Origin: a bacterium
GTDB taxonomy: Bacteria; JALSQH01
Reading direction: 5' to 3'
Assembly: GCA_026985515.1 (NCBI GenBank)
Contig: JALSQH010000032.1
Span: 1 to 18,368, forward strand
DNA: 18,368 bases
Translations under genes and position numbers: made by a program
Shown here: piece after piece, positions 3,478 to 15,097 of the stretch
How positions within the stretch are numbered: the first letter of the stretch is position 1
How the letters are laid out: each line of letters opens with the position of its first letter
Notes under the pieces: model-generated
Seen by the model: the letters and a program-made list of their open reading frames with translations, nothing else
What the model was told of the DNA's origin: nothing
The model's database searches: none

Positions 3478-4215
3478 TTATTCAAAGAAATCACTTTTAC
3501 CAAGATAAGCTCTCTGAATCTCCTTGCTTTTTTTCAATTCTTCTGAACTTCCGGAATATACGAGGCTTCCCGACTCAAGCACATATCCTCGATCTGAAAT
3601 TTCAAGAGCCTTTCTGGCGTTCTGTTCCACCAGAAGTATTGTGACACCCATATCTTTTCTCAATTCCTCAATTACCTTGAAGATTTCATTTACAATGACC
3701 GGTGCAAGTCCCATAGAGGGTTCATCAAGAAGCAAGAGCCTTGGTCTGCTCATAAGTGCCCTACCTATGGCAAGCATCTGCTGTTCTCCCCCACTCAGCG
3801 TACCTGCCAGCTGATCGCTTCTTTCTTTTAGCCTCGGGAAAATTGCAAATACCTGCTCAATCCTATCCTTCACAATCTTACTGAAATCGCCATTTTTTTT
3901 CAAATAGGGATACGCTCCCAGAAGGAGATTATCCCGAACAGTTAAATTGGGGAACAATCTCCTCCCCTCCGGCACATGAGAAATTCCCATATTTACAATA
4001 ACATGAGGGGGTAATCCATTTATCCTTTCATTTTCAAAGATGATTTCTCCCCTTGTTTTAACCATTATTCCTGATATTGCTCTGAGAGTTGAAGTCTTCC
4101 CGGAACCATTGGCACCAATAATTGTGACAATTTCACCTTCGTTAACATGGAAGGAGAGAGATTTAACTGCTCTCAATTTGCCGTAAAATACCTCCAGATT
4201 CCTCACAACCAGCAT
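3478..4215 (-). CDS. livF: Branched-chain amino acid-type ABC transporter ATPase LivF
   Basis: This is one of the two cytoplasmic ATPases of a HAAT-family (Liv) importer, 245 residues. It has Walker A GANGSGKT (34-41), a Q-loop region, signature LSGGEQQ (140-146), Walker B LLLLDEP (160-166) and the H-loop region VEQNARKAL. The sequence [14 protein letters not shown] is diagnostic of LivF. The longest frame opens with TTG at 4227, but GGAG sits six bases before the ATG at 4215, which follows the livG stop by one base, so I use the ATG. Translation is probably coupled to livG. Liv systems carry branched-chain amino acids but also aromatic acids, amides or urea, so the substrate is not fixed by this subunit. 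Confidence 0.94.
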
Positions 4216-4216
4216 T

Positions 4217-4984
4217 TCATTCTCCAAGATAGGCTGCTATTACCTGCGGGTCTTTTTTAATCTCATCCGGTGACCCCTCAGCTATTACCCTGCCAAAGTT
4301 AAGGACCACCACTCTCTCTGCAAGGTTCATAAGGAAATCCATATCATGCTCCACAACAAGGATTGTGAGATTGTGTTTCTCCTTTACTTTGAAGAGAAGC
4401 TCCATCAGGTCAAGAGTTTCTGAAGTATTCAAACCAGAGGCTATTTCATCAAGCAGAAGAAGCTCCGGCTCAGTGACAAGGGCCCTTGCTAACTCCACCA
4501 GCCTCATTTTTCCAAAGGGGAGATCTCCCGCAGGGGTATTTCTGAAATCCTGCAGACCCACCTCCTCAAGAAAATACTCTGCCTTTTCAATTGATTCCCT
4601 TTCACTTTTCCAGATTGAGGGGAAAGCGAACAAGTTGGAAAAAAAACCGGCAGAGGTAAGAACATCTGCTCCCACCATAATATTTTCAATGACGCTCATT
4701 TCAGAAAAAACTCTCAGATTTTGAAATGTCCTGCTCATACCCATTCTTGCTATTTTATGCGGCGGATGAGAGGTTATATCAACACCTTTAAAGATTACCT
4801 TTCCCCCATCAGGTTTTATAAAACCTGAAATTATGTTGAAAAGTGTGGTTTTCCCCGCTCCATTTGGACCAATCAAACCAAGTACCTCTTCCTGAGAAAT
4901 GGAAAGGGAAACATCGTCAAGAGCCTTAACACCACCAAAATGCTTAACGATCCTCTCTGCCCCCAGTATTTTTGAATTTCCCAT
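4217..4984 (-). CDS. livG: Branched-chain amino acid-type ABC transporter ATPase LivG
   Basis: This is the second ATPase of the Liv importer, 255 residues. Walker A is GPNGAGKT (39-46). SRTFQNLRVFSEMSV carries the Q-loop. The signature motif is the divergent LPFGKM (about 155-160) that LivG proteins have in place of LSGGQ. Walker B is LLLLDE (Asp179, Glu180) and the H-loop is VVEHDMDFL. The ATG at 4984 has GGAGG six bases upstream and lies inside livM (41-base overlap), so translation is probably coupled. It should pair with LivF on the LivH/LivM permease. Confidence 0.94.
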   Translation of the reverse strand: MGNSKILGAERIVKHFGGVKALDDVSLSISQEEVLGLIGPNGAGKTTLFNIISGFIKPDGGKVIFKGVDITSHPPHKIARMGMSRTFQNLRVFSEMSVIENIMVGADVLTSAGFFSNLFAFPSIWKSERESIEKAEYFLEEVGLQDFRNTPAGDLPFGKMRLVELARALVTEPELLLLDEIASGLNTSETLDLMELLFKVKEKHNLTILVVEHDMDFLMNLAERVVVLNFGRVIAEGSPDEIKKDPQVIAAYLGE

Positions 4985-5903
4985 AAATATCCTCCACTGC
5001 TCCGGCTATACCGCCCGGCATGAAGATTATAACAAGAATCAACAATGAACCATAAACGATAATATCGTAATCTTCGAAAATCCTCAGAAATTCAGGGAGA
5101 TAGGTTAAAAAGATTGCTCCTGTAACCCCACCCCAGATATTTCCCATACCTCCCACCATTACCATTGTAACAAGCTGGATTGACCTCTTAAAACCAAAGG
5201 AAGCGGGACTGATAAATATAACCGTGTGAGCATAGAGGCTGCCGGCAATACTTGCAAAGACTGCACTGACAACAAAAACGAGGACCTTGTAGTGATAGGT
5301 ATTCACACCAAGAGCCACCACAGCTTCTTCGTCCTGATGAATAGCCCTGAATATTCTGCCAGCTTTGAATGAAGCAAGATTTTTAGAGAGCCAAATAATC
5401 ACAAATGTGATCATTGCAGTAACCACATAAATTGTGGAGTAAGATGAGAATGTCAAACTTCCAAATCTCATGTATGGAATTCCCACGAAACCTGATGGTC
5501 CACCCGTTATGTCAACAAGTTGACTGAAAAATATGTATAGAATCATACCAAGCCCAAGTGTTGCCATGGCGAGGTAGTGACCTCTGAGTTTGAGTGTTGG
5601 AAGTGCAACAAAAAATGCAACAATCCCCACAAGGACAAAAGCAGTTATCATTGCAAGCCAGCAGTTCCAGTGGTAGGTGGCAGTAAGAATGGCGGATATG
5701 TAGGCACCAAGACCCACAAAACCAGCGTGACCAAGAGATATCTGACCTGCATACCCCATGAGGAGATTCAGTCCTGTCACAGTAATGATATTCTCAAGGG
5801 CAAAAATTCCCACATTGAGTCCGTAATTGTCTGTAATAATCAAAGGATATGCAATCAAAAGAAGTGCAAAGATCAGGATATCGGCGTATCTTTTCAATCT
5901 CAC
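4944..5903 (-). CDS. livM: Branched-chain amino acid-type ABC transporter permease LivM
   Basis: This inner-membrane permease has 319 residues and about eight to ten hydrophobic segments. The LivM hallmark GYAGQISLGHAGFVGLGAY lies near residues 50-68. The cytoplasmic coupling loop is near 160-200 (AGRIFRAIHQDEEAVVALGVN) and a GGMGNIWGG motif near 250. The start is GTG at 5903, overlapping the livH stop as GTGA, a classic coupled junction. An in-frame TTG two codons later is an alternative. It should form the translocation path with LivH. Confidence 0.93.
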   Translation of the reverse strand: MRLKRYADILIFALLLIAYPLIITDNYGLNVGIFALENIITVTGLNLLMGYAGQISLGHAGFVGLGAYISAILTATYHWNCWLAMITAFVLVGIVAFFVALPTLKLRGHYLAMATLGLGMILYIFFSQLVDITGGPSGFVGIPYMRFGSLTFSSYSTIYVVTAMITFVIIWLSKNLASFKAGRIFRAIHQDEEAVVALGVNTYHYKVLVFVVSAVFASIAGSLYAHTVIFISPASFGFKRSIQLVTMVMVGGMGNIWGGVTGAIFLTYLPEFLRIFEDYDIIVYGSLLILVIIFMPGGIAGAVEDIYGKFKNTGGREDR

Positions 5904-6772
5904 ACCCTTTCCGCTTTAATTTCTCCAACAATTCCCTGGGGTCTCATGTAGAGGAAGAGAAGAAGCAGACCAAAAGTTATGGCATCCTTATAACCGGATG
6001 ATATTAATCCTGCGCTGAAAGATTCCACAATGCCGAGAATTATTCCACCCACCAGTGCCCCACTCATCCTGCCGAGTCCGCCCACGACAGCGGCAGCGAA
6101 GCCTTTGAGGCCAAGGGAAATACCAATATCGTAAGATGTCAGGGTAACTGGTGTCATCAGGGCTCCTGCCATTCCGCTGAAGAGAGCGCTGATAAAAAAA
6201 GAATACATGGTAACTCTTTCAACATTTATCCCCACAAGCCTTGCGGCAACGGGGTCTACAGAACTTGCAAGCATAGCTTTTCCCGTAATGGTGTAGCGAA
6301 AAAATCCACCTAACAGAAGCATGGATATAATGGAGACCACGATAATCCATATATACTGGGGAGAAACTGCAGCACCTAAAAATCTTATGGGGATATCCCC
6401 TGAAAATGAGGGAAGGGCATGTGAATTTTTATCCCAGACCAGCATGGCAATTCCTCTTATGAGAATTGAATCACCAATCGTTACAATGATGAGGGAAAGT
6501 ATTGATGCATCTCTGATGGGTCTGATGGAAAGTCTCTCCACCAAAATACCAGTTACTCCTGCAAGGAGTATTCCGGACAAGATTGCAAATATAAGGGGAA
6601 AGTGAAGGTAATGATAGAAATAAACACTCCCCATCCCTCCCAGCATAACAAATTCACCCTGAGCAAAATTGATTATACCTGTGGCGTTATAGATCAGATT
6701 AAAGCCAATGGCAATCAGTGCGTATGCACTGCCAATACTGATACCTGAGACAAGATACTGAATGAGATCCAT
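5900..6772 (-). CDS. livH: Branched-chain amino acid-type ABC transporter permease LivH
   Basis: This inner-membrane permease has 290 residues and about eight hydrophobic segments. It has the LivH motifs LVSGISIGSAYALIAIGFNLIY (residues 7-28), GIINFAQGEFVMLGG (32-46) and VVGGLGRMSGALVGG near 230. The start ATG at 6772 has only a weak upstream site (CGGAAAA). It is the first gene after the intrinsic terminator that follows the binding-protein gene, so its expression, and that of livM, livG, livF and paaK, depends on read-through or an unseen internal start. Confidence 0.93.
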   Translation of the reverse strand: MDLIQYLVSGISIGSAYALIAIGFNLIYNATGIINFAQGEFVMLGGMGSVYFYHYLHFPLIFAILSGILLAGVTGILVERLSIRPIRDASILSLIIVTIGDSILIRGIAMLVWDKNSHALPSFSGDIPIRFLGAAVSPQYIWIIVVSIISMLLLGGFFRYTITGKAMLASSVDPVAARLVGINVERVTMYSFFISALFSGMAGALMTPVTLTSYDIGISLGLKGFAAAVVGGLGRMSGALVGGIILGIVESFSAGLISSGYKDAITFGLLLLFLYMRPQGIVGEIKAERV

Positions 6773-6781
6773 TTTTCCGAT

Positions 6782-6806
6782 AAAAAAGAGGGGGTGAGAC
6801 CCCCTC
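6782..6806 (-). terminator. Rho-independent terminator between livK and livH
   Basis: On the minus strand a perfect seven-base-pair stem GAGGGGG/CCCCCTC with a five-base loop is followed directly by six T residues. It lies just after the stop of the binding-protein gene and just before livH. The downstream genes are clearly the same transporter, so it most likely acts as a partial terminator that lets the binding protein be made in excess of the membrane parts. Confidence 0.88.
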
Positions 6807-6811
6807 AGAAA

Positions 6812-8008
6812 TTACTCCTCTAAAAGTTCCCAGTTTCCATTGTGTATTCTTACAAGTACAAAAGCATCCTTTGAGAGACCCTCATGATCCTGCGGAGAGA
6901 GATTGTAAATTCCACCGGTGCCGGGGAAATTCTTAATGGTTTCAAGGGCGGCAACAATCTTATCTCCATTGGTGCTCTTTGCCCTCCTTATTGCTTCAAA
7001 GAGTAGATGGAGGGCATCATATGCATGACCACCGAAGGTTGAAGGCTCACTACCATATCTTGCCTTATACTTTGCTATGTAATCCAGGAGCAATTTTTTC
7101 TGTGGATCTGTGTCAGGAAGCTGATCAGCCACAATTAACCTGCCGGCAGGGAGGATTATTCCCTCAGCTGCATCTTTCCCGGCAAGTTCTATGAATTTCT
7201 TTGAAGCAACTCCATGGCTCATGAAGAGAGGTGTTTTAATCCCGAGCTGCAGACGGTTCCTGGCTATAACAGCGGGACCAGGATTTGTACCCCATACCAC
7301 AATGGCGTCTGGATTGAGTCCCTTTATCTTTGTGAGCTGAGCAGTCATGTCAGTGTCCTTTGGACCATAGATTTCATCTGCCACGATTTCAATCCCATAT
7401 TTTGGTGCCAGGAGTTTCAGCTGCTCCCTGCCGCTTGCACCGAAGCCATTGTTAACGGTGAGAATGGCGATTTTTTTGTATCCCTTTTTGTTGAAGTACT
7501 CGTAAAGTTTCTCTACCGCAAAAGTATCAAGCTGAGGAACGGTAAATACATACTTTCTCTCACTTACAGGCTGAACGATCTTCCTGCTTGCGGCACAGGA
7601 AATAAGTGGTATCTTCGCTCTCATAACGATTGGAATCACTGCCAGCGTAGTTCCTGATCTGCTTGGTCCAATTATTGCCACAACTTTATCCTTCTGTATC
7701 AATCTGTTAACAGCCATAACAGCCTTCTGTTCCTGACCTTCCGTGTCGTAAACAATCAGCTTAACCTTCTTTCCAAGCAAACCACCAGATTTGTTGATCT
7801 CATCCACAACCATAAGAGCCGTATTTTTCTCTGGCTGACCGAGAAAGGAAGCAGGACCAGTGACTGAAAATACTGCTCCAATTTTAATTACATTTTCCTC
7901 TGCAGGTTTTGCCTTAGCCTGCTGTTCCTTACTCTTCTTCTTGCAACCGGTGGAAACCAGACCGGCAAGAAGGAAGAGAACAAGTAATATTTTTAAATTC
8001 TTCCTCAT
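6812..8008 (-). CDS. LivK-type periplasmic substrate-binding lipoprotein
   Basis: This is the substrate-binding subunit of the Liv transporter, 398 residues (Leu/Ile/Val-binding type, Peripla_BP_6). A hydrophobic signal ends in LVSTGC, making Cys22 the probable lipidated residue, followed by a Lys/Gln/Ala-rich tether. The mature protein opens IKIGAVFSVTGPASFLGQPEKN, a standard family start, and holds the conserved AIIGPSRSGTTLAVIPI segment around 110-128. Lys23 after Cys22 is not an inner-membrane retention Asp, so the final membrane is uncertain. A GGAGG lies eight bases before the ATG. The gene is 17 bases after the porin-like gene. Ligand unknown: a branched-chain amino acid or an aromatic/organic acid would both fit. 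Confidence 0.9.
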   Translation of the reverse strand: MRKNLKILLVLFLLAGLVSTGCKKKSKEQQAKAKPAEENVIKIGAVFSVTGPASFLGQPEKNTALMVVDEINKSGGLLGKKVKLIVYDTEGQEQKAVMAVNRLIQKDKVVAIIGPSRSGTTLAVIPIVMRAKIPLISCAASRKIVQPVSERKYVFTVPQLDTFAVEKLYEYFNKKGYKKIAILTVNNGFGASGREQLKLLAPKYGIEIVADEIYGPKDTDMTAQLTKIKGLNPDAIVVWGTNPGPAVIARNRLQLGIKTPLFMSHGVASKKFIELAGKDAAEGIILPAGRLIVADQLPDTDPQKKLLLDYIAKYKARYGSEPSTFGGHAYDALHLLFEAIRRAKSTNGDKIVAALETIKNFPGTGGIYNLSPQDHEGLSKDAFVLVRIHNGNWELLEE

Positions 8009-8025
8009 TTTCTACACCTCCCTTT

Positions 8026-9498
8026 TTACATGTAGAAGAAAACGAATTCAATGAAGAAAACATCATTCTTTACTTTATTCCACTTCACATCTCCCTTTGG
8101 ACCCTCAAAGTTAAAGTAGTACTCTGTCTGAATCCATGCCCATTTAGCGAGGTAGGTCTTGAGTGAAAGCTGGATCTGCCTCTTATTCCAGAGGGCACTG
8201 TAAGCCTCAGAATCAAATCTGTGGTTACTGAAATCCTCGTGGGTGTCGAGTTCCGCATATCTTGCAAGAAAATCAAATCTTCCGGGAAGAACCTTATAGA
8301 CCCCAAGTATGTGAAAACCTGTGATCTCCAGTCCACCTGTGTATCCGTAGAAAAATTCTGCATCAGAGGAAAATCTTCCGAGGATCACCCTCATATCTGC
8401 ACCGGCACGGTATTTATTTCTGTTTTTAAACAAATCAACAGGTATATTTAGCTTATTAGAATCAGTAAGTGTTTTTAAATCACCATTAGTGAGTCTGTTT
8501 CCATTGGTTCCGAATATATCAAACTGAAAATACTTTCCATTTGAATGATAAGCTTTTGAATATGATACACCTGCAGGCCACTGATAACCAAGTTTAACAC
8601 TTACTCCTTTATTTTTGTCATTATCTGTGACTTCGGACAATGGCCCAGGACCAACTCCAAACATCTCTCTGTCAGCAATTATTTTCACCTTTGGTGGATT
8701 TACAGGGTTGTTGGGACCAAAGGGTCTATCCCCTATTCTTAACCCATTGAAAACTGAAACTGCAAAGTTTATCATTCCGCTGAAGGAAGAAATATACTCA
8801 ATTCCGGTAACCCTGTCATGAGTGAAGGCTTCTGCTACGAGGCTGTAATCTGAAATTTTTCTGTTTGGATACTTGGGAGGAATACCAAAAGCTGAACGAT
8901 ACCACTTACCTATCCTGAAGGATTGCGTATATTTACCAAGGGTAGGTAATTTTAACTCCGCCTGCGCTCGTTCAAAATAGGTGTATCCTATCATTTCGGA
9001 AGGATAGTATGGAGGAACACCCGATAACACGTTGGAAAGAGATATCTGATTTGGATGCCACCAGACATTTATCCAGGCAGTGATATAATCAGCAGGATGA
9101 TAGGCCAGATTGAATGTGATTTCTTCAAGACTTATGGCAGAGTATGTTTTATCAAGGCTGTCAACATACCTCATTCTGAGATATCCCCAGAATTTCAGAT
9201 TACCAAGAACAAGATGGGTATCTTTATTCTCAAGAACTTTCACCTTTTTCTCAAGTTCATCCAGGCGGGCTTCAAGATCCTGGATTTTCTTCTCCTTTTC
9301 CTGCATCATCTTCTTCATTTTTGCATTCATACCTGACATACCGGCAGAATTCACAGAGACGGTTACGGGGTTTTGCATCGCTTTCATCATTCCCATGCTC
9401 TGTTTTGAACCCTGATTTTTACCCATATCCATTTTTCCCTGTGCCAGCAATCCCAGAGGTAACAGGAGCAGGACCCATAAAATTAAAACTCGTCTCAT
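8026..9498 (-). CDS. Porin-like outer-membrane beta-barrel protein with coiled coil
   Basis: This is a 490-residue exported protein. A signal peptide (MRRVLILWVLLLLPLGLLA, cleavage after Ala19) is followed by a methionine-rich segment (11 Met between about 22 and 65), a heptad-type coiled coil (about 65-95, EKKIQDLEARLDELEKKV), and then a long region of alternating polar and aromatic strands typical of a beta-barrel. It ends in FFIEFVFFYM, aromatic-rich but lacking the usual terminal Phe. Coiled coils before the barrel occur in several trimeric porins. AAGGAGGTG lies four bases before the ATG. It is the first gene of the Liv/paaK operon, so it probably carries the same solute through the outer membrane. 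I do not recognise a specific named family. Confidence 0.8.
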   Translation of the reverse strand: MRRVLILWVLLLLPLGLLAQGKMDMGKNQGSKQSMGMMKAMQNPVTVSVNSAGMSGMNAKMKKMMQEKEKKIQDLEARLDELEKKVKVLENKDTHLVLGNLKFWGYLRMRYVDSLDKTYSAISLEEITFNLAYHPADYITAWINVWWHPNQISLSNVLSGVPPYYPSEMIGYTYFERAQAELKLPTLGKYTQSFRIGKWYRSAFGIPPKYPNRKISDYSLVAEAFTHDRVTGIEYISSFSGMINFAVSVFNGLRIGDRPFGPNNPVNPPKVKIIADREMFGVGPGPLSEVTDNDKNKGVSVKLGYQWPAGVSYSKAYHSNGKYFQFDIFGTNGNRLTNGDLKTLTDSNKLNIPVDLFKNRNKYRAGADMRVILGRFSSDAEFFYGYTGGLEITGFHILGVYKVLPGRFDFLARYAELDTHEDFSNHRFDSEAYSALWNKRQIQLSLKTYLAKWAWIQTEYYFNFEGPKGDVKWNKVKNDVFFIEFVFFYM

Positions 9499-9604
9499 AC
9501 AACACCTCCTTTGAGTTTTGGATTTTTCTGGGCCAGCGAAAGCTCCATTTACCCCTGGACGGGTAATATGGGCCTCCCCTGCCAGCCTCCGGTTTTTCAG
9601 TGTC
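9499..9604 (-). promoter_or_regulatory. Structured 5' leader of the porin-liv operon
   Basis: About 105 transcribed bases lie between the predicted start of transcription and the porin ATG. On the minus strand a strong hairpin pairs CCAT and TTACCC (9571-9561) with GGGTAA and ATGG (9554-9545), with one bulged base and a six-base loop. A short AGC/GCT hairpin (9544-9535) is next to it. GGCC at 9574-9571 can pair with GGCC at 9534-9531, closing both as a three-way junction (it competes for one base of the outer CCAT stem). The ribosome site AAAGGAGGTG follows. I could not match it to a known riboswitch class. It could be a protein-binding or metabolite-sensing leader, or simply a stabilising 5' structure. 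Confidence 0.4.
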
Positions 9605-9611
9605 CTGAATT

Positions 9612-9640
9612 TTTATAACATAAGGTAACTGTTCTGTCAA
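9612..9640 (-). promoter_or_regulatory. Predicted sigma70-type promoter of the porin-liv-paaK operon
   Basis: On the minus strand a perfect -35 TTGACA (9640-9635) is separated by 17 bases from TATAAA (9617-9612), five of six bases of the -10 consensus. Transcription would start near 9605 and give a leader of about 105 bases before the porin gene. Confidence 0.75.
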
Positions 9641-9641
9641 T

Positions 9642-9658
9642 CCCTGGAGAGATCAGGG
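9642..9658. repeat. Inverted repeat just upstream of the operon promoter
   Basis: CCCTG and CAGGG are separated by seven bases, immediately upstream of the -35 element and directly after the end of the solute-binding protein gene. It has no T-tract, so it is a poor terminator. Its placement suits an operator, but no regulator is known. Confidence 0.35.
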
Positions 9659-10633
9659 TTACTGGAGAGGGGTTATTTTATAACCATTCTGGGAAGCAAA
9701 CATTATAGCATTTGTGGCAATCTGGGTGAGGTTGAGGAGCCTTGCAACCTGTACATTAACGGCTATCTCAAGGCCCCTGGGATACTCATACGGGATCTGG
9801 GAGGGGGGTATTCCGCTGAATATACGCTGGGCTATCTCGCAAGCCTGAGCTCCAAGACTTACATAATCACCCACGGTGAGGGCAATGAATGCTCCACTCT
9901 TTACCAGCGCCTTTGAAAAAACGAAGAAGGGAATCTTCTTCTCATTTGTGAACTTTAAAATTTCAACAAAGGACTTCCTGGTTACCACAGTTGGATCAGG
10001 AATTAGCCAGTAGGCATCAATTCCCCCCGCAAACAGCTGAAGAGCATCAAGAGTGTCATCCTCTGTTTCAACTCTTCCTGCAATGAGCTGAAGTCCAAGT
10101 TTCGCAGCAACCCTCTTCGCTTCCTTTATGATGTTCTCGGAGTTACGGGGATTGTACAGTACACCAATCTTTTTTATATTGGGGACAATTGCCTTTATTG
10201 TCTTGAGCTGGACTTCAACAGGAATTTCAAGTCTAACACCGGTTATATTTGGAGCCTTAATATTCAATCTTTCTGGATTAAGTACCACTGTGAAAACGAT
10301 GGGGATTGAACTGCTTATGTAATTTTTCGCGGCTATAAGAGCCCTTGCACCAACTGCAAGTACGAGATCAGGATGTTCTGCATTTATTTGATCTGCGTAG
10401 GTCTTTGCAATGGCATAGTTGTTGTTGATGTTGAATTCCTTATACTCCCCGGGACAGTTGCTTTTGAAACCGGCAATGGCATCATTGTAGAACTTGTTGT
10501 CCATGCTTTTTAATATGTAAATACGCTTCTTTCCCTGAGCGAAAGTTGTACTCAGTGTGAAAAAAATAAAACCAATCAGGAGAAAAAATGTTATTGAAAT
10601 TAATGTGGTAACATTTCTGCTTTTAACTATCAT
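9659..10633 (-). CDS. PF04392-type ABC substrate-binding protein, no permease nearby
   Basis: This is a 324-residue exported solute-binding protein of the PF04392 (ABC_sub_bind) type. A long signal peptide runs to Ala32 (TTFA, then QGKK). The periplasmic fold has two alpha/beta lobes: LVLAVGARALIAAKNY, IPIVFTVVLNPERL, ITGVRLEIPVEVQLKTIKAIVPNIKKIGVLY, and in the second lobe AYWLIPDPTVV and PFFVFSKALVKSGAFIALTVGDY. The start is ATG 10633, six bases after AAAGGG, rather than the in-frame TTG two codons earlier. A promoter lies just upstream. In transporters this family pairs with a permease and ATPase, but neither is adjacent. It follows a TonB receptor gene instead, suggesting a sensory or scavenging role. 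Ligand unknown. Confidence 0.85.
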   Translation of the reverse strand: MIVKSRNVTTLISITFFLLIGFIFFTLSTTFAQGKKRIYILKSMDNKFYNDAIAGFKSNCPGEYKEFNINNNYAIAKTYADQINAEHPDLVLAVGARALIAAKNYISSSIPIVFTVVLNPERLNIKAPNITGVRLEIPVEVQLKTIKAIVPNIKKIGVLYNPRNSENIIKEAKRVAAKLGLQLIAGRVETEDDTLDALQLFAGGIDAYWLIPDPTVVTRKSFVEILKFTNEKKIPFFVFSKALVKSGAFIALTVGDYVSLGAQACEIAQRIFSGIPPSQIPYEYPRGLEIAVNVQVARLLNLTQIATNAIMFASQNGYKITPLQ

Positions 10634-10650
10634 TATCAACCCTTTTTAAA

Positions 10651-10679
10651 ATATTAACGCAAAAATGCCCGCCTGTCAA
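10651..10679 (-). promoter_or_regulatory. Predicted internal promoter before the solute-binding protein gene
   Basis: On the minus strand TTGACA (10679-10674) is 17 bases from TAATAT (10656-10651), in the gap after the TonB receptor gene. The -35 is perfect and the -10 is 4/6. It would allow expression of the solute-binding protein apart from the kinase and receptor genes. Confidence 0.5.
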
Positions 10680-10689
10680 TAAAACACAT

Positions 10690-12936
10690 TTAAAAAGTTG
10701 CCCTCACAAACCCCATGAGAATCCTCGGGATCTTTGATCCTCCAAATGTCTGGGGGACTGAATCTGGTGTGAATTTCAGGTTATCGTCACCTGCAAACTC
10801 TCTGTGACCGGGGGCCACAAGATTTTTACCGTAAAAGCCAATCTCTATTTCCTTCGTAACCAGAAAAGAAAGTTTCAAACTCAGATCCAGATAATTCCCC
10901 AGTTCCTGATTCTCCACATAGGGCACAAAGACACTCCCCTTGATGGGGTTAGTGAGCTCTACATATCTTTTGGAAATATAATGTCCAAGTAAAGCGTAAC
11001 TTAATCGATCAGAGATGTTGCCCAGGACTCCAAAATTAACGCTGTTTTCGGGGTGGGTATCTTCATAGGTATTAAGATTGACATTTTTCACTTTAAGATA
11101 TGAATAATTAACGAATCCACCTATCATTTTTGAACCATACCTAAAACTTATTTCACCACCGTAGTAATCTCTGTCGTTACCAGTGTTTGTGAAAAGCAAC
11201 CTGCTTCCAGAAAATTGAATCGCCTTTCTGTGTTGATTGTAAAAAAGGTCAATATTGAATCTCAAATTCTTACCATACTTGGCAGCGTAGCCAAGTTCGT
11301 AGGCTGTCATCTCCTCATTTTTAAGTTCAGGGTTGGCCCATGTGAGATTTAAATTTTCAAGTCTTTTTAACTTCATCTGATTCTGGTAAAAAGATGGTTT
11401 CAGGAAAGCTTTTGAATAACTGATTCTAAATGAATTGTTATTTATGGGTGTTATTATCAAACATACTTTGGGGCTGAAAGCAGGTTCCTTAGTTGTGGAG
11501 TTCCAGTCGTAACGGGCTCCGAGGGTCAGAGTGACAAGATCCACAGGATACCACTCATTCTGGAGGTAAACTCCCACCCTCTTTTCATCAGAATACTGTG
11601 GGTCAAATATTTCAGATTTATAAAATGAATATCTAACATTCACACCGCCAGTCAGCCTGTCAACCTTGCCAACTTCTCTGGAGTAAAGGAAATCTCCATC
11701 AAACATGTCATTGGTACCATAGATATTTCCAAGCAGTGACTGGAAAAGGGGATTCTCAATCTTAACATCAGCATAAGTATCTGACCAGAATACCCTTGCT
11801 TTAAAATTCTCAAGTGTGTAAATGGCATTAATATAGTTGATTTTCCCATGGGTGGGTACCTCGCCTAAGTTCGAAAATATGTCTGCATACGCATCTATAA
11901 CTCCACCACTAAGTTTCAGGTATGATTGTTCATAAAACTTGTACTTGACAACGCTCCTCATTAACTTAGCCTCAAAGCCAGTTTCATTTCTGTCATAAGC
12001 CCTTGATTTTCTATACATTCCTGTTAGAGAATATGAGAGAGATTCATTCTTTTTGGCACTGAGGCTCACTGTGGAATAAAGGGTGTCATAGTTCCCCACA
12101 TAGGTGGCAAGGTAGTAACCCTGCTGTTTATCTGGATCAATGGAGATTATGTTTATAACAGTGGAGAAAGCATTGGCTCCATAAAGAGCTGAACCGGGAC
12201 CCCTGATTATTTCAATTCTTTCTACATCATGAAGAGAAATTGGAATTACTTCACTAAACGCAATTCCAAACATTTGATTATTTAATTCCATTCCATCGAG
12301 CAAGAAAAGAGACATGTTGTTCGATTCATCTGCCATTCCTCTGGCCCCAACTATATAATAACCAGGGGTAAATTGATAAACTTCCATGCCAGGAACATAC
12401 TTTAGTAATTCCGCAAATGAAAAAGTCCCTGTTTTCCTAATAAATTTTTTATCAAGAACAGTAATTGCAGCCGGTGCTTTTGTGGCTTTCTGTTTGTGAC
12501 GGGCAGCAGAAACAACGACATCCTCAGCCTGGAAAAGTTCAAATTCCTCTTCCAGCTCTGATCGCTTTTTCGACTGCAGGGTAACTTTAATTTTGAATGG
12601 TTTGGCTGCGCTGGCAAAAAGGAGATGCGTCTGACCGTTCAAATCCATATAGTAAATGAAAAGGGAAATTTCAGGGGGTATGACATCCTTTCCCGGTATA
12701 TATCCAACAAAATATCCATTACTTCTGCTCAGAACAACAGTTTTGTACCTTGATTTTGCATTTTTGTAACTGACTATTATCTGGGAAACCTGGGATGGAT
12801 TGCTTACTCTCAACTGTATTTTGACATCCTCACCCTCCACCACAGTAAGAGGTGGGAAAAATTCAACCAGTTTCACAGCGGCTTTAAGGCTTGCTGTGAA
12901 GAAAAAGATGAGAAGAAGATATTTAAGGAGTTTCAT
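10690..12936 (-). CDS. TonB-dependent outer-membrane receptor with extra N-terminal domain
   Basis: This is a 748-residue outer-membrane receptor. A signal peptide ends near Ala19 (FFFTASLKA). Residues about 22-120 form a beta-rich domain not found in minimal receptors (PPLTVVEGEDVKIQLRVSNPSQ, Ig/fibronectin-like in appearance). A TonB-box-like EDVVVSAAR lies near 138-146. The plug follows (about 150-260), with LLKYVPGMEVY, YYIVGARGM, FLLDGMELNNQ and VERIEIIRGPGSALYGANAFSTVINI. The remainder is a beta-barrel ending in VRATF, the expected terminal Phe. The ATG at 12936 is chosen because AGGAGG sits exactly six bases before it; the longer frame from 12960 would overlap the kinase gene and put the ribosome site inside the protein. 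It starts 10 bases after the kinase stop. Substrate not predictable; no haem or cobalamin genes are near. Confidence 0.92.
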   Translation of the reverse strand: MKLLKYLLLIFFFTASLKAAVKLVEFFPPLTVVEGEDVKIQLRVSNPSQVSQIIVSYKNAKSRYKTVVLSRSNGYFVGYIPGKDVIPPEISLFIYYMDLNGQTHLLFASAAKPFKIKVTLQSKKRSELEEEFELFQAEDVVVSAARHKQKATKAPAAITVLDKKFIRKTGTFSFAELLKYVPGMEVYQFTPGYYIVGARGMADESNNMSLFLLDGMELNNQMFGIAFSEVIPISLHDVERIEIIRGPGSALYGANAFSTVINIISIDPDKQQGYYLATYVGNYDTLYSTVSLSAKKNESLSYSLTGMYRKSRAYDRNETGFEAKLMRSVVKYKFYEQSYLKLSGGVIDAYADIFSNLGEVPTHGKINYINAIYTLENFKARVFWSDTYADVKIENPLFQSLLGNIYGTNDMFDGDFLYSREVGKVDRLTGGVNVRYSFYKSEIFDPQYSDEKRVGVYLQNEWYPVDLVTLTLGARYDWNSTTKEPAFSPKVCLIITPINNNSFRISYSKAFLKPSFYQNQMKLKRLENLNLTWANPELKNEEMTAYELGYAAKYGKNLRFNIDLFYNQHRKAIQFSGSRLLFTNTGNDRDYYGGEISFRYGSKMIGGFVNYSYLKVKNVNLNTYEDTHPENSVNFGVLGNISDRLSYALLGHYISKRYVELTNPIKGSVFVPYVENQELGNYLDLSLKLSFLVTKEIEIGFYGKNLVAPGHREFAGDDNLKFTPDSVPQTFGGSKIPRILMGFVRATF

Positions 12937-12946
12937 CCTCATCCTC

Positions 12947-15097
12947 CTAATAATTTGCATCCTTACAGCATCTGAAACCTATATCTTTATCATGCCTGAA
13001 ATATGCCTTCGGTCTCCTGGCAGAACATCTTGATTCACCTTTTGTTCTTCTGTAAGATCCACCCTTTGTGACAAACATATTCTGTGCAGTCATGGTAGCA
13101 GTCCACTCAAGGAGATTGCCACTCATGTCATAAACACCAAAACCACTTTTACACCCGGGAAGGGAACCGGAGGGAAGTATTTTTCCAAATCCTGCCTCAG
13201 AGGTGTTGCAGGCTCTGTTTTTGAAGCTCATCCCGTAGGGGAAGAGATTGTTTGAAGGACCCTTGCAAGCTCTCTCCCACTCAGCTTCGGTGCATAATCT
13301 TTTTCCCTGTGCTTTGCACAGATTATATGCCTGGGTATAGGTCACTCCTGATCGGGGAACAGCACCCTTTTTGTTGGGGTACTCATATTTATCTATGCAG
13401 AATCCCTTTATGTATGTTCTGCCAAAATACTTATCAAAGAAACTGTCACGATACGGGTCATCGGGAGGTGAACCGTAAATAAAGTAACCTCCCGGGATAT
13501 ACACCATACCGGGGGGACAGCGGGGAGGTTTTGCCATGGCCACTTTTTCAGGCTTCTGTTCTTTACTTACAGACTCCTTTTTCCCACCTGCCTCTGCCTT
13601 CACAGTTTCTTTTACTCTTTTCTTTTCCTCAGAGGCCACTTTCTTCTCGGTTTTTCTGACCTTAACTTTCTGAGCAGTTTTCTCCACCTTTCTTTTAGAT
13701 TCTGCCACATTTGCCTGTTTTTTTACCTGATTTGTTGAAGCTTTTACAGTTAACTGAGGCGTGGCAATACTTTTTCTGGCGACTCTTTGTGTAGTTTTGG
13801 GTGAAGTTAAACTACTTTCAGATTTATTTCTTCCCTTCCCCTGAAGAAAAACAAATGCTCCAGCCCCTCCTGCAAGTATCAGGAGAATAAGAAGTATCAG
13901 TGCCAGAGGGGATTTTTTCTTCTCAGGCTTCCTTTCAATCCTCTCCTCTTCTTCCGGAGAAATCAGTTCTTCTTCAAACAGCAACTCCTTTTTCCGTTCC
14001 TTCTTTTCTTCCTTCTCTTCCCCCATTTCCTCTTCTGCAAACAGATCAACTTTCTTTGAAGGTTTCTCCTCTTCTGGGGGTTTCCCTTCCACTCCAGGTC
14101 CCTCTTCTTTTTTCTCCGGTTTTGCAGCTTTCCTCTGCTCCTCTTTCTTTTTCTTTATTGTTTCCTTCAGCAGTGACACCTTGCCTTCTCTTCCAGCAAC
14201 GCGGCCAAATTCGTAGTGAAATTCCTCAATACAGCAGAACCTCTTTTCGGGATCCCTTGAAAGAGCTTTGAGAACTATTTCATCCACATCCCCTCTGATA
14301 TCCGGGTTTATGGAAGAAGGAGGAGCAGGTTCAGCTTTGGGGATTGAGCAGGTGAGCATTTCATAAAGAATTACACCGAGGGCGTAAATATCAACTTTCT
14401 GGTCTATCTGGTCTGGAGCAGTGATATACTCCGGAGAAAGGTAGTAGTAAACATCTCCCAGAGCAAGCTGTACAGATACGAAATCCTGGGGAGGTAGAAC
14501 TCTGCTGATCACATAATCGGTGACCTTTACACCACTGGCAGTTATGATCACATTTTCAGGTTTAAGATCACCGTGAAAACTGAATGTATGAATTTTCTCA
14601 AGGGCTTTTGCAATTCCATCAAAAATGGGAAATATCTCACTCAGAGAGAAAAACTGCTGTTTGTTCTTCTTTGCATTTATAACTTTCCTCAGGTCGATTC
14701 CGTCAATGTACTGTGTTACAATGAAGGGAACTCCCCTGAATTCGTCAATTTCAAAGTACTTGACCAGATTCTCATGATCAACTTCAAGAACCTTTCTGTG
14801 TTCATCAAAAAATCTATTTCGGATTTCCTGATCCTCGCAGAACTCCCTGTTGAGCATTTTAACTATGGAAATGACATCATACTTTGTGTCGTAAACTTTA
14901 AAGACGGTGCCTATTCCTCCGCTCCCGAGATTCTGCCTGATTTCAAAACGATCCTTTATCAAATCCCCCTCTTTGAGTGTCGAGGGATCAAGGATTTTGT
15001 CTCTGTCAATCTTTAAAATGGGCTTGATAATCTGACCACAGTATGGGCAAACTTCAGCATCATCGGGAACTTCCTGAAGACACCTGAAGCATTTCAC
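12947..15097 (-). CDS. Zinc-ribbon Ser/Thr protein kinase with FGE-sulfatase-like domain
   Basis: This is a 716-residue, single-pass membrane protein. Residues 1-22 form a zinc ribbon (Cys3, Cys6, Cys17, Cys20). Residues 51-300 are a Hanks-type kinase: glycine loop GSGGIG (58-63), Lys80, HGDLKPEN (Asp177, Asn182), Asp194 in TDYV replacing DFG, and SPE at 221-223. A charged Glu/Lys region follows (311-395), then a membrane segment (397-419), a Lys-rich linker (425-520) and an FGE-sulfatase/SUMF1-like domain (526-713: GMVYIPGGYFIYGS, LCTEAEWERAC, YDMSGNLLEW, KGGSY, IGFRCC) expected outside the inner membrane. The copper-binding cysteines of true formylglycine enzymes are not at their usual places, so that domain is probably binding or structural. 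The start is GTG at 15097 with AAGGAG seven bases upstream. It leads an operon with the TonB receptor, suggesting envelope sensing linked to phosphorylation. Confidence 0.92.
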   Translation of the reverse strand: MKCFRCLQEVPDDAEVCPYCGQIIKPILKIDRDKILDPSTLKEGDLIKDRFEIRQNLGSGGIGTVFKVYDTKYDVISIVKMLNREFCEDQEIRNRFFDEHRKVLEVDHENLVKYFEIDEFRGVPFIVTQYIDGIDLRKVINAKKNKQQFFSLSEIFPIFDGIAKALEKIHTFSFHGDLKPENVIITASGVKVTDYVISRVLPPQDFVSVQLALGDVYYYLSPEYITAPDQIDQKVDIYALGVILYEMLTCSIPKAEPAPPSSINPDIRGDVDEIVLKALSRDPEKRFCCIEEFHYEFGRVAGREGKVSLLKETIKKKKEEQRKAAKPEKKEEGPGVEGKPPEEEKPSKKVDLFAEEEMGEEKEEKKERKKELLFEEELISPEEEERIERKPEKKKSPLALILLILLILAGGAGAFVFLQGKGRNKSESSLTSPKTTQRVARKSIATPQLTVKASTNQVKKQANVAESKRKVEKTAQKVKVRKTEKKVASEEKKRVKETVKAEAGGKKESVSKEQKPEKVAMAKPPRCPPGMVYIPGGYFIYGSPPDDPYRDSFFDKYFGRTYIKGFCIDKYEYPNKKGAVPRSGVTYTQAYNLCKAQGKRLCTEAEWERACKGPSNNLFPYGMSFKNRACNTSEAGFGKILPSGSLPGCKSGFGVYDMSGNLLEWTATMTAQNMFVTKGGSYRRTKGESRCSARRPKAYFRHDKDIGFRCCKDANY

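Follow-up and report, generated by a model that had tools for sequence, protein, structure and literature searches.

A transmembrane Ser/Thr kinase, a TonB receptor and an orphan solute-binding protein encoded together as a probable envelope-spanning sensing module

Contig JALSQH010000032.1 of the bacterial assembly GCA_026985515.1 (GTDB lineage JALSQH01; 18,368 nucleotides, all of which were analysed and which we call the window) carries three consecutive genes on its minus strand. They encode, in order, a Ser/Thr kinase fused to a domain resembling formylglycine-generating enzyme (kinase-FGE), a TonB receptor and a solute-binding protein (SBP) of family PF04392. The trio is probably an envelope-spanning sensing module, the Ser/Thr version of an arrangement in which a TonB receptor and an SBP are encoded with a histidine kinase. 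Kinase-FGE and SBP form the conserved core of the module; the TonB receptor has been added in particular lineages and is found only in the window family and in one remote lineage (G049).

Results

Organisation of the three genes

The gene order was taken from the list of open reading frames (ORFs) and from Pfam, which matches the kinase protein to Pkinase (5e-31) and FGE-sulfatase (2e-22), the receptor to the TonB plug and barrel, and the SBP to ABC_sub_bind (PF04392, 6e-34). A first-pass annotation of this DNA had described a kinase with an envelope-facing domain, a TonB receptor and an SBP, and both the ORFs and Pfam agree with it. The junctions are also as it gave them. The kinase stop codon TAG forms part of the AGGAGG ribosome site ahead of the receptor ATG at 12936, and the SBP ATG at 10633 follows the receptor stop after 56 nt (about 55 bases in the annotation). 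The kinase and the receptor are likely to be in one operon. The SBP had been placed in the same operon; here the claim stands less well, because a TTGACA-N17-TAATAT site, whose TTGACA the sister genus shares, sits in the gap between receptor and SBP and may serve the SBP as an additional promoter of its own. No terminator was found in the sequence 3′ of the SBP. There is no sigma/anti-sigma pair among the window genes, as had been noted. The stated lack of a permease and an ATPase is correct within the trio, but a complete Liv ABC system lies downstream on the same strand.

Conservation of the trio and of the kinase–SBP pair

The grouping had been made to depend on the three genes being neighbours in some relative, and both the trio and the kinase–SBP adjacency recur elsewhere, the adjacency in at least five lineages beyond those with the trio. 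In the sister genus (G001), the sole relative from the same family as the window's own genome (G000), the SBP and TonB genes have the window's order. At the edge of this contig, immediately ahead of TonB, stand the last codons of a kinase (IGFRCCKDAK-stop); the 5′ part of the kinase gene lies on a separate contig, where its neighbour is the divergent glycosyltransferase gene also found in the window. In G049, which is related at the domain level only, kinase-FGE (9683..7425), TonB (7377..4954) and SBP follow one another in the same order, and the TonB protein matches the window receptor at 2e-101. The three-gene order is real, so far in two deep lineages (the window family and G049), and exceeds chance because it recurs in both G001 and G049.

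A six-member SBP alignment lacked a conserved stretch, and the kinase-FGE alignment was used instead to scan named genomes. The scan gave 80 loci; 27 encode kinase-FGE fusions, and in the other 53 the FGE is not fused to a kinase. A PF04392 SBP comes immediately after 13 of the 27 fusions, versus 0 of the 53 unfused loci. The taxa with kinase-FGE and SBP include Myxococcus xanthus, Citreicoccus, Corallococcus, other Myxococcaceae and a Bdellovibrionales metagenome-assembled genome. Independent lineages were taken from a 386-genome sample, in which the adjacency is found in G000/G001, G015, G029, G034, G049, G150 and G179. The SBP follows the kinase-FGE directly, with no TonB gene between them, in G015, G029/Citreicoccus, M. 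xanthus, Myxococcaceae, Bdellovibrionota, G034, G150 and G179. The two genes often overlap by 4 nt, as do the stop and start codons in G029. The four best SBPs that had not gone into the profile (G049, G021, G168 and G150) all come from genomes that carry a kinase-FGE. On the kinase tree adjacency with the SBP changes at least seven times, so that its gain or loss has been frequent; some Myxococcus relatives have no SBP here, and purB comes straight after the kinase. One locus (L079), from a record titled Comamonas sp. KCTC 72670, nests within Myxococcus in the kinase tree, and the assembly is probably mislabelled or contaminated.

The TonB–SBP–histidine kinase arrangement

In the 386-genome sample, the surroundings of 66 related SBP loci from 41 families were scanned, and TonB genes were counted on the same strand and within 3.5 kb. 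A TonB receptor is near 32 of the 66 loci (20 of the 41 families), a rate that is indicative only, as the TonB profile was partly built from such SBP loci. Histidine kinases are near 22 loci (17 families) and occur together with TonB near 13 (12 families); only 3 loci have a permease of the PF04392-transporter type nearby. For the 80 FGE loci, used as a control, the counts are 0 for TonB and 2 for histidine kinase. The window's own genome contains such an operon (G000:C255, L053 8927-14412), in which the genes for a TonB receptor, a PF04392 SBP, a histidine kinase and an NtrC-type regulator overlap. The trio likewise has a TonB receptor beside an SBP without the transporter pocket signature (see below); in the place of the histidine kinase and response regulator it has the Ser/Thr kinase-FGE. 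It is best read as the same arrangement in a Ser/Thr-kinase form. Neighbourhoods with TonB, PF04392 SBP and histidine kinase genes and without a permease are widespread (L164-L203 and L158-L162), and possibly represent an undescribed signalling family. A literature search (TonB with SBP and histidine kinase; orphan SBP with TonB; PF04392; FGE kinases) returned no description, which is not proof of absence.

The solute-binding protein and its pocket

The SBP has relatives of known structure in 3lkv, 3lft and 6hni. The amino-acid ligand pocket of TrpX is made by T108, A127, T129, D152 and N233 (PMC9382623). At these positions 3lkv and each of the three ABC-linked SBPs have TATDN; the window SBP has AVLLP, with all five residues different. 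Within a set of about 65 members TATDN is present in no TonB-, kinase- or orphan-type SBP, and PF04392 splits cleanly by pocket signature, TATDN being confined to ABC-linked proteins. On its pocket residues the window SBP is placed outside the transporter class. An aromatic amino acid ligand, hinted at by 3lkv, 3lft and 6hni and by the downstream PaaK, is unsupported because the pocket does not read TATDN. No cognate permease or ATPase lies beside the window SBP; the Liv system has its own binding protein. A plasmid search matched only distant SBPs labelled as transporter components, and in the annotated records examined such PF04392 proteins are named simply 'ABC transporter substrate-binding protein'. 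Elsewhere in the same genome (G000:C241, L052 1256-3851) another orphan PF04392 SBP gene is directly followed by a gene for an outer-membrane channel of the FadL/TodX type, again with no permease.

The TonB receptor

The AlphaFold model of the receptor is a BtuB/Cir-type barrel with a plug (Foldseek, BtuB, TM(target) 0.89), and a TonB-box-like EDVVVSA precedes the plug. With its plug, 22-strand barrel and TonB box the protein is a TonB-dependent receptor, and it is of the transporter class. The N-terminal domain (about residues 30-127) is all-beta in the model, and Pfam detects no STN signalling domain in the receptor. Receptor paralogues that carry this N-terminal domain are also found away from SBPs, so it is not peculiar to the module. 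A tandem pair of TonB receptors in the same genome (G000:C250, L060 1992-7077) matches the window receptor, N-terminal region included. The substrate could not be named by homology, as the plug similarity is generic and BtuB, the nearest fold, is insufficient.

The kinase and its FGE-like domain

The kinase starts with a zinc ribbon (CxxC...CPxCG), followed by the kinase domain (residues 52-264), a single transmembrane helix (398-419) and the Cys-rich, periplasmic FGE-like domain (about residues 527-716). The kinase and FGE domains are modelled by AlphaFold at a pLDDT of about 90; the linkers are long, disordered, rich in Lys and Glu, and of low confidence in the model. The Foldseek neighbours of the kinase domain are PknB and PknI. 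All four catalytic residues are present (K80, D177, N182 and D194), within motifs that include HGDLKPEN and DYV, the FG of the usual DFG being replaced by YV. By these residues the protein is classed as a Hanks-type Ser/Thr kinase. Among SBP-linked FGE kinases, L067, L144, L145, L080 and L100 are without the HxD aspartate and are predicted pseudokinases; two of the HxD-negative kinase relatives are from Corallococcus. None of the roughly 40 relatives aligned has the catalytic cysteine pair of SUMF1, which lies in the CHRSYC loop ahead of the conserved RC, and the cysteines left in the FGE-like domain are structural only. The likelier role of the domain, judged from these residues, is as a sensor or docking surface.

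The downstream unit

On the same strand, 3′ of the SBP, Pfam and the ORFs give a porin-like gene, LivK, LivH, LivM, LivG, LivF and a PaaK-like CoA ligase (Table 1). LivK is a lipoprotein of the Peripla_BP_6 family. The porin-like barrel, which heads this Liv-PaaK cluster, has a Met-rich N terminus and an N-terminal coiled coil, and it matched no Pfam family. The porin-Liv genes look like a separate unit because the promoter-like site ahead of them and a structured leader are both conserved in G001; the site TTGACA-N17-TATAAA probably marks the start of that unit and the boundary of the trio module. The leader is conserved in G001 as CCGGAGGCTGG...GCCCA.ATTA...AGGGGTAA.TGGAGCTTT and is present in a single copy in the genome. 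Searches of the window and of the porin leader against Rfam gave no match. The leader is a candidate cis-regulatory RNA.

Table 1. Features of the trio and of the downstream unit in the window
Feature	Position	Strand	Details
Ser/Thr kinase gene	15097..12947	-	716 aa; ORF and Pfam
FGE-like (SUMF1-fold) periplasmic domain	12950..13519	-	10 cysteines; without the SUMF1 catalytic CHRSYC loop
TonB receptor gene	12960..10690	-	756 aa; likely start ATG 12936; Pfam and sequence
Promoter-like site TTGACA-N17-TAATAT	10679..10651	-	In the TonB–SBP gap; TTGACA kept in G001
PF04392 SBP gene	10639..9659	-	326 aa; signal peptide; likely start ATG 10633; Pfam
Promoter-like site TTGACA-N17-TATAAA	9640..9612	-	3′ of the SBP; conserved in G001
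Structured 5′ leader of the porin-Liv unit	9499-9600	-	RNA fold z = -2.2; conserved in G001
Outer-membrane porin-like gene	9498..8026	-	Coiled-coil/beta-barrel protein
Liv-type ABC system, complete, own binding protein	8008..3478	-	Pfam

Discussion

The first-pass annotation had suggested that a ligand enters through the receptor, is captured by the SBP and is reported to the cytoplasm by the kinase. The SBP and TonB receptor as sensor input are supported by the far commoner arrangement with histidine kinases, one of which is in the same genome. In such a chain the TonB receptor would carry a specific, scarce compound over the outer membrane, as its fold, plug and TonB box suggest. The orphan SBP, whose pocket differs from those of transporter SBPs, would capture the compound in the periplasm. 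The loaded SBP would then dock onto the non-enzymatic FGE-like domain, a step consistent with the conserved gene pairing and with the loss of the catalytic cysteines. The single transmembrane helix would relay the signal to the PknB-like kinase domain, whose active-site residues suggest that it could phosphorylate cytoplasmic targets. In its fullest form the proposal is a continuous Ser/Thr phosphosignalling chain from the outer membrane to the cytoplasm, in which a dedicated SBP directly switches the kinase through a repurposed, non-enzymatic FGE fold, and which is a branch of a large undescribed family of TonB–SBP–sensor-kinase systems with interchangeable histidine and Ser/Thr kinases. We offer this form tentatively and give it somewhat less than an even chance.

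Several observations weigh against the sensing module. The SBP possibly has a separate promoter. The Fisher test for SBP adjacency (p = 6e-8) overstates independence, with Myxococcaceae dominating the count. No SBP is adjacent in 14 of the 27 kinase-FGE fusions, and the f21 genomes carry both genes, apart from each other. Kinase-linked SBPs do not form one clade in the SBP tree. Phosphotransfer appears not to be a universal output of the family, because the catalytic HxD aspartate is lost in several SBP-linked relatives (L067/G015, G049, G150, L080 and L100).

The receptor and SBP could instead be ordinary import steps that feed a distant permease or the Liv permeases, with the kinase as a loosely linked regulator. 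The position of the Liv system would suit this, and canonical-pocket PF04392 SBPs do serve ABC permeases. The Liv unit, however, comes with a binding protein and a conserved promoter-like site of its own, the pairing of SBP and kinase is conserved without a permease in other lineages, and the window SBP has lost the transporter pocket signature; we therefore regard ordinary uptake as unlikely. A little less likely again is that the FGE-like kinase is mainly a scaffold or pseudokinase, which senses the SBP or the state of the envelope and recruits partners without phosphorylation. Such a role would fit the relatives that have lost the HxD aspartate and the long low-confidence linkers of the model, but the window kinase keeps all of its catalytic residues and most SBP-linked relatives retain HxD. 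That the genes are coincidental neighbours with no functional coupling, as their separation in the f21 genomes and in many relatives might suggest, is very improbable and largely refuted by the adjacency, which recurs across at least seven deep lineages and often has the genes overlapping. The idea that the FGE domain generates formylglycine, or otherwise oxidises a periplasmic partner, draws on the Pfam FGE-sulfatase match and is rejected as scarcely credible, being contradicted by the missing cysteine pair.

The sensing module has partial counterparts among known systems. Stimulation of receptors by SBPs, Ser/Thr kinases included, is an accepted general mechanism (PMC9602780), and GlnH-GlnX-PknG of Actinobacteria is a worked example of SBP–Ser/Thr kinase signalling (PMC6069109, PMC9769921). 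There, as here, a periplasmic SBP gene is linked to a Ser/Thr kinase gene, and the loaded SBP is proposed to control the kinase. PknG, however, is not a membrane sensor, the four-transmembrane GlnX acting as relay, whereas the window kinase is itself a membrane-spanning protein that bears an FGE-like ectodomain; the window SBP belongs to PF04392, a TonB receptor is added, and the envelope is of the Gram-negative type. No GlnX-like mediator or TPR gene is present in the window. In BctC-BctE (PMC9602780) a loaded SBP also stimulates a membrane sensor kinase, but BctC in addition belongs to a transporter, whereas the window has an orphan SBP and, as its output, a Ser/Thr rather than a histidine kinase. 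The TonB–SBP–histidine kinase operons (G000:C255, L160, L187-L189 and L197) share with the window the receptor, an orphan non-TATDN SBP, a membrane kinase and the lack of a permease, and differ from it in that a histidine kinase with a response regulator takes the place of the Ser/Thr kinase-FGE. Signalling of the FecA/FpvA type likewise has a TonB receptor within the chain; the window receptor is without an STN domain and without a sigma/anti-sigma pair. The TrpXYZ-type ABC importers (3lft, PMC9382623) use an SBP of the same family, but the window SBP has no adjacent cognate permease or ATPase, and its ligand residues are replaced. The first-pass annotation knew of no system of this make-up. 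Our literature search also gave none, but SBP-controlled Ser/Thr kinases as such are already known from GlnH-GlnX-PknG; what sets the window apart is the one-piece transmembrane kinase, the different SBP family and the TonB receptor.

What stimulates bacterial Ser/Thr kinases has been called an outstanding question (PMC6069109). The conserved kinase–SBP pair in the genetically tractable M. xanthus offers a concrete, testable extracellular input. With the pocket signature, PF04392 proteins of the signalling class can be told from those of the transport class by their sequence. A TonB–SBP–sensor-kinase module would carry SBP signalling out to the outer membrane, and the family of such modules as a whole may merit more attention than the single window described here.

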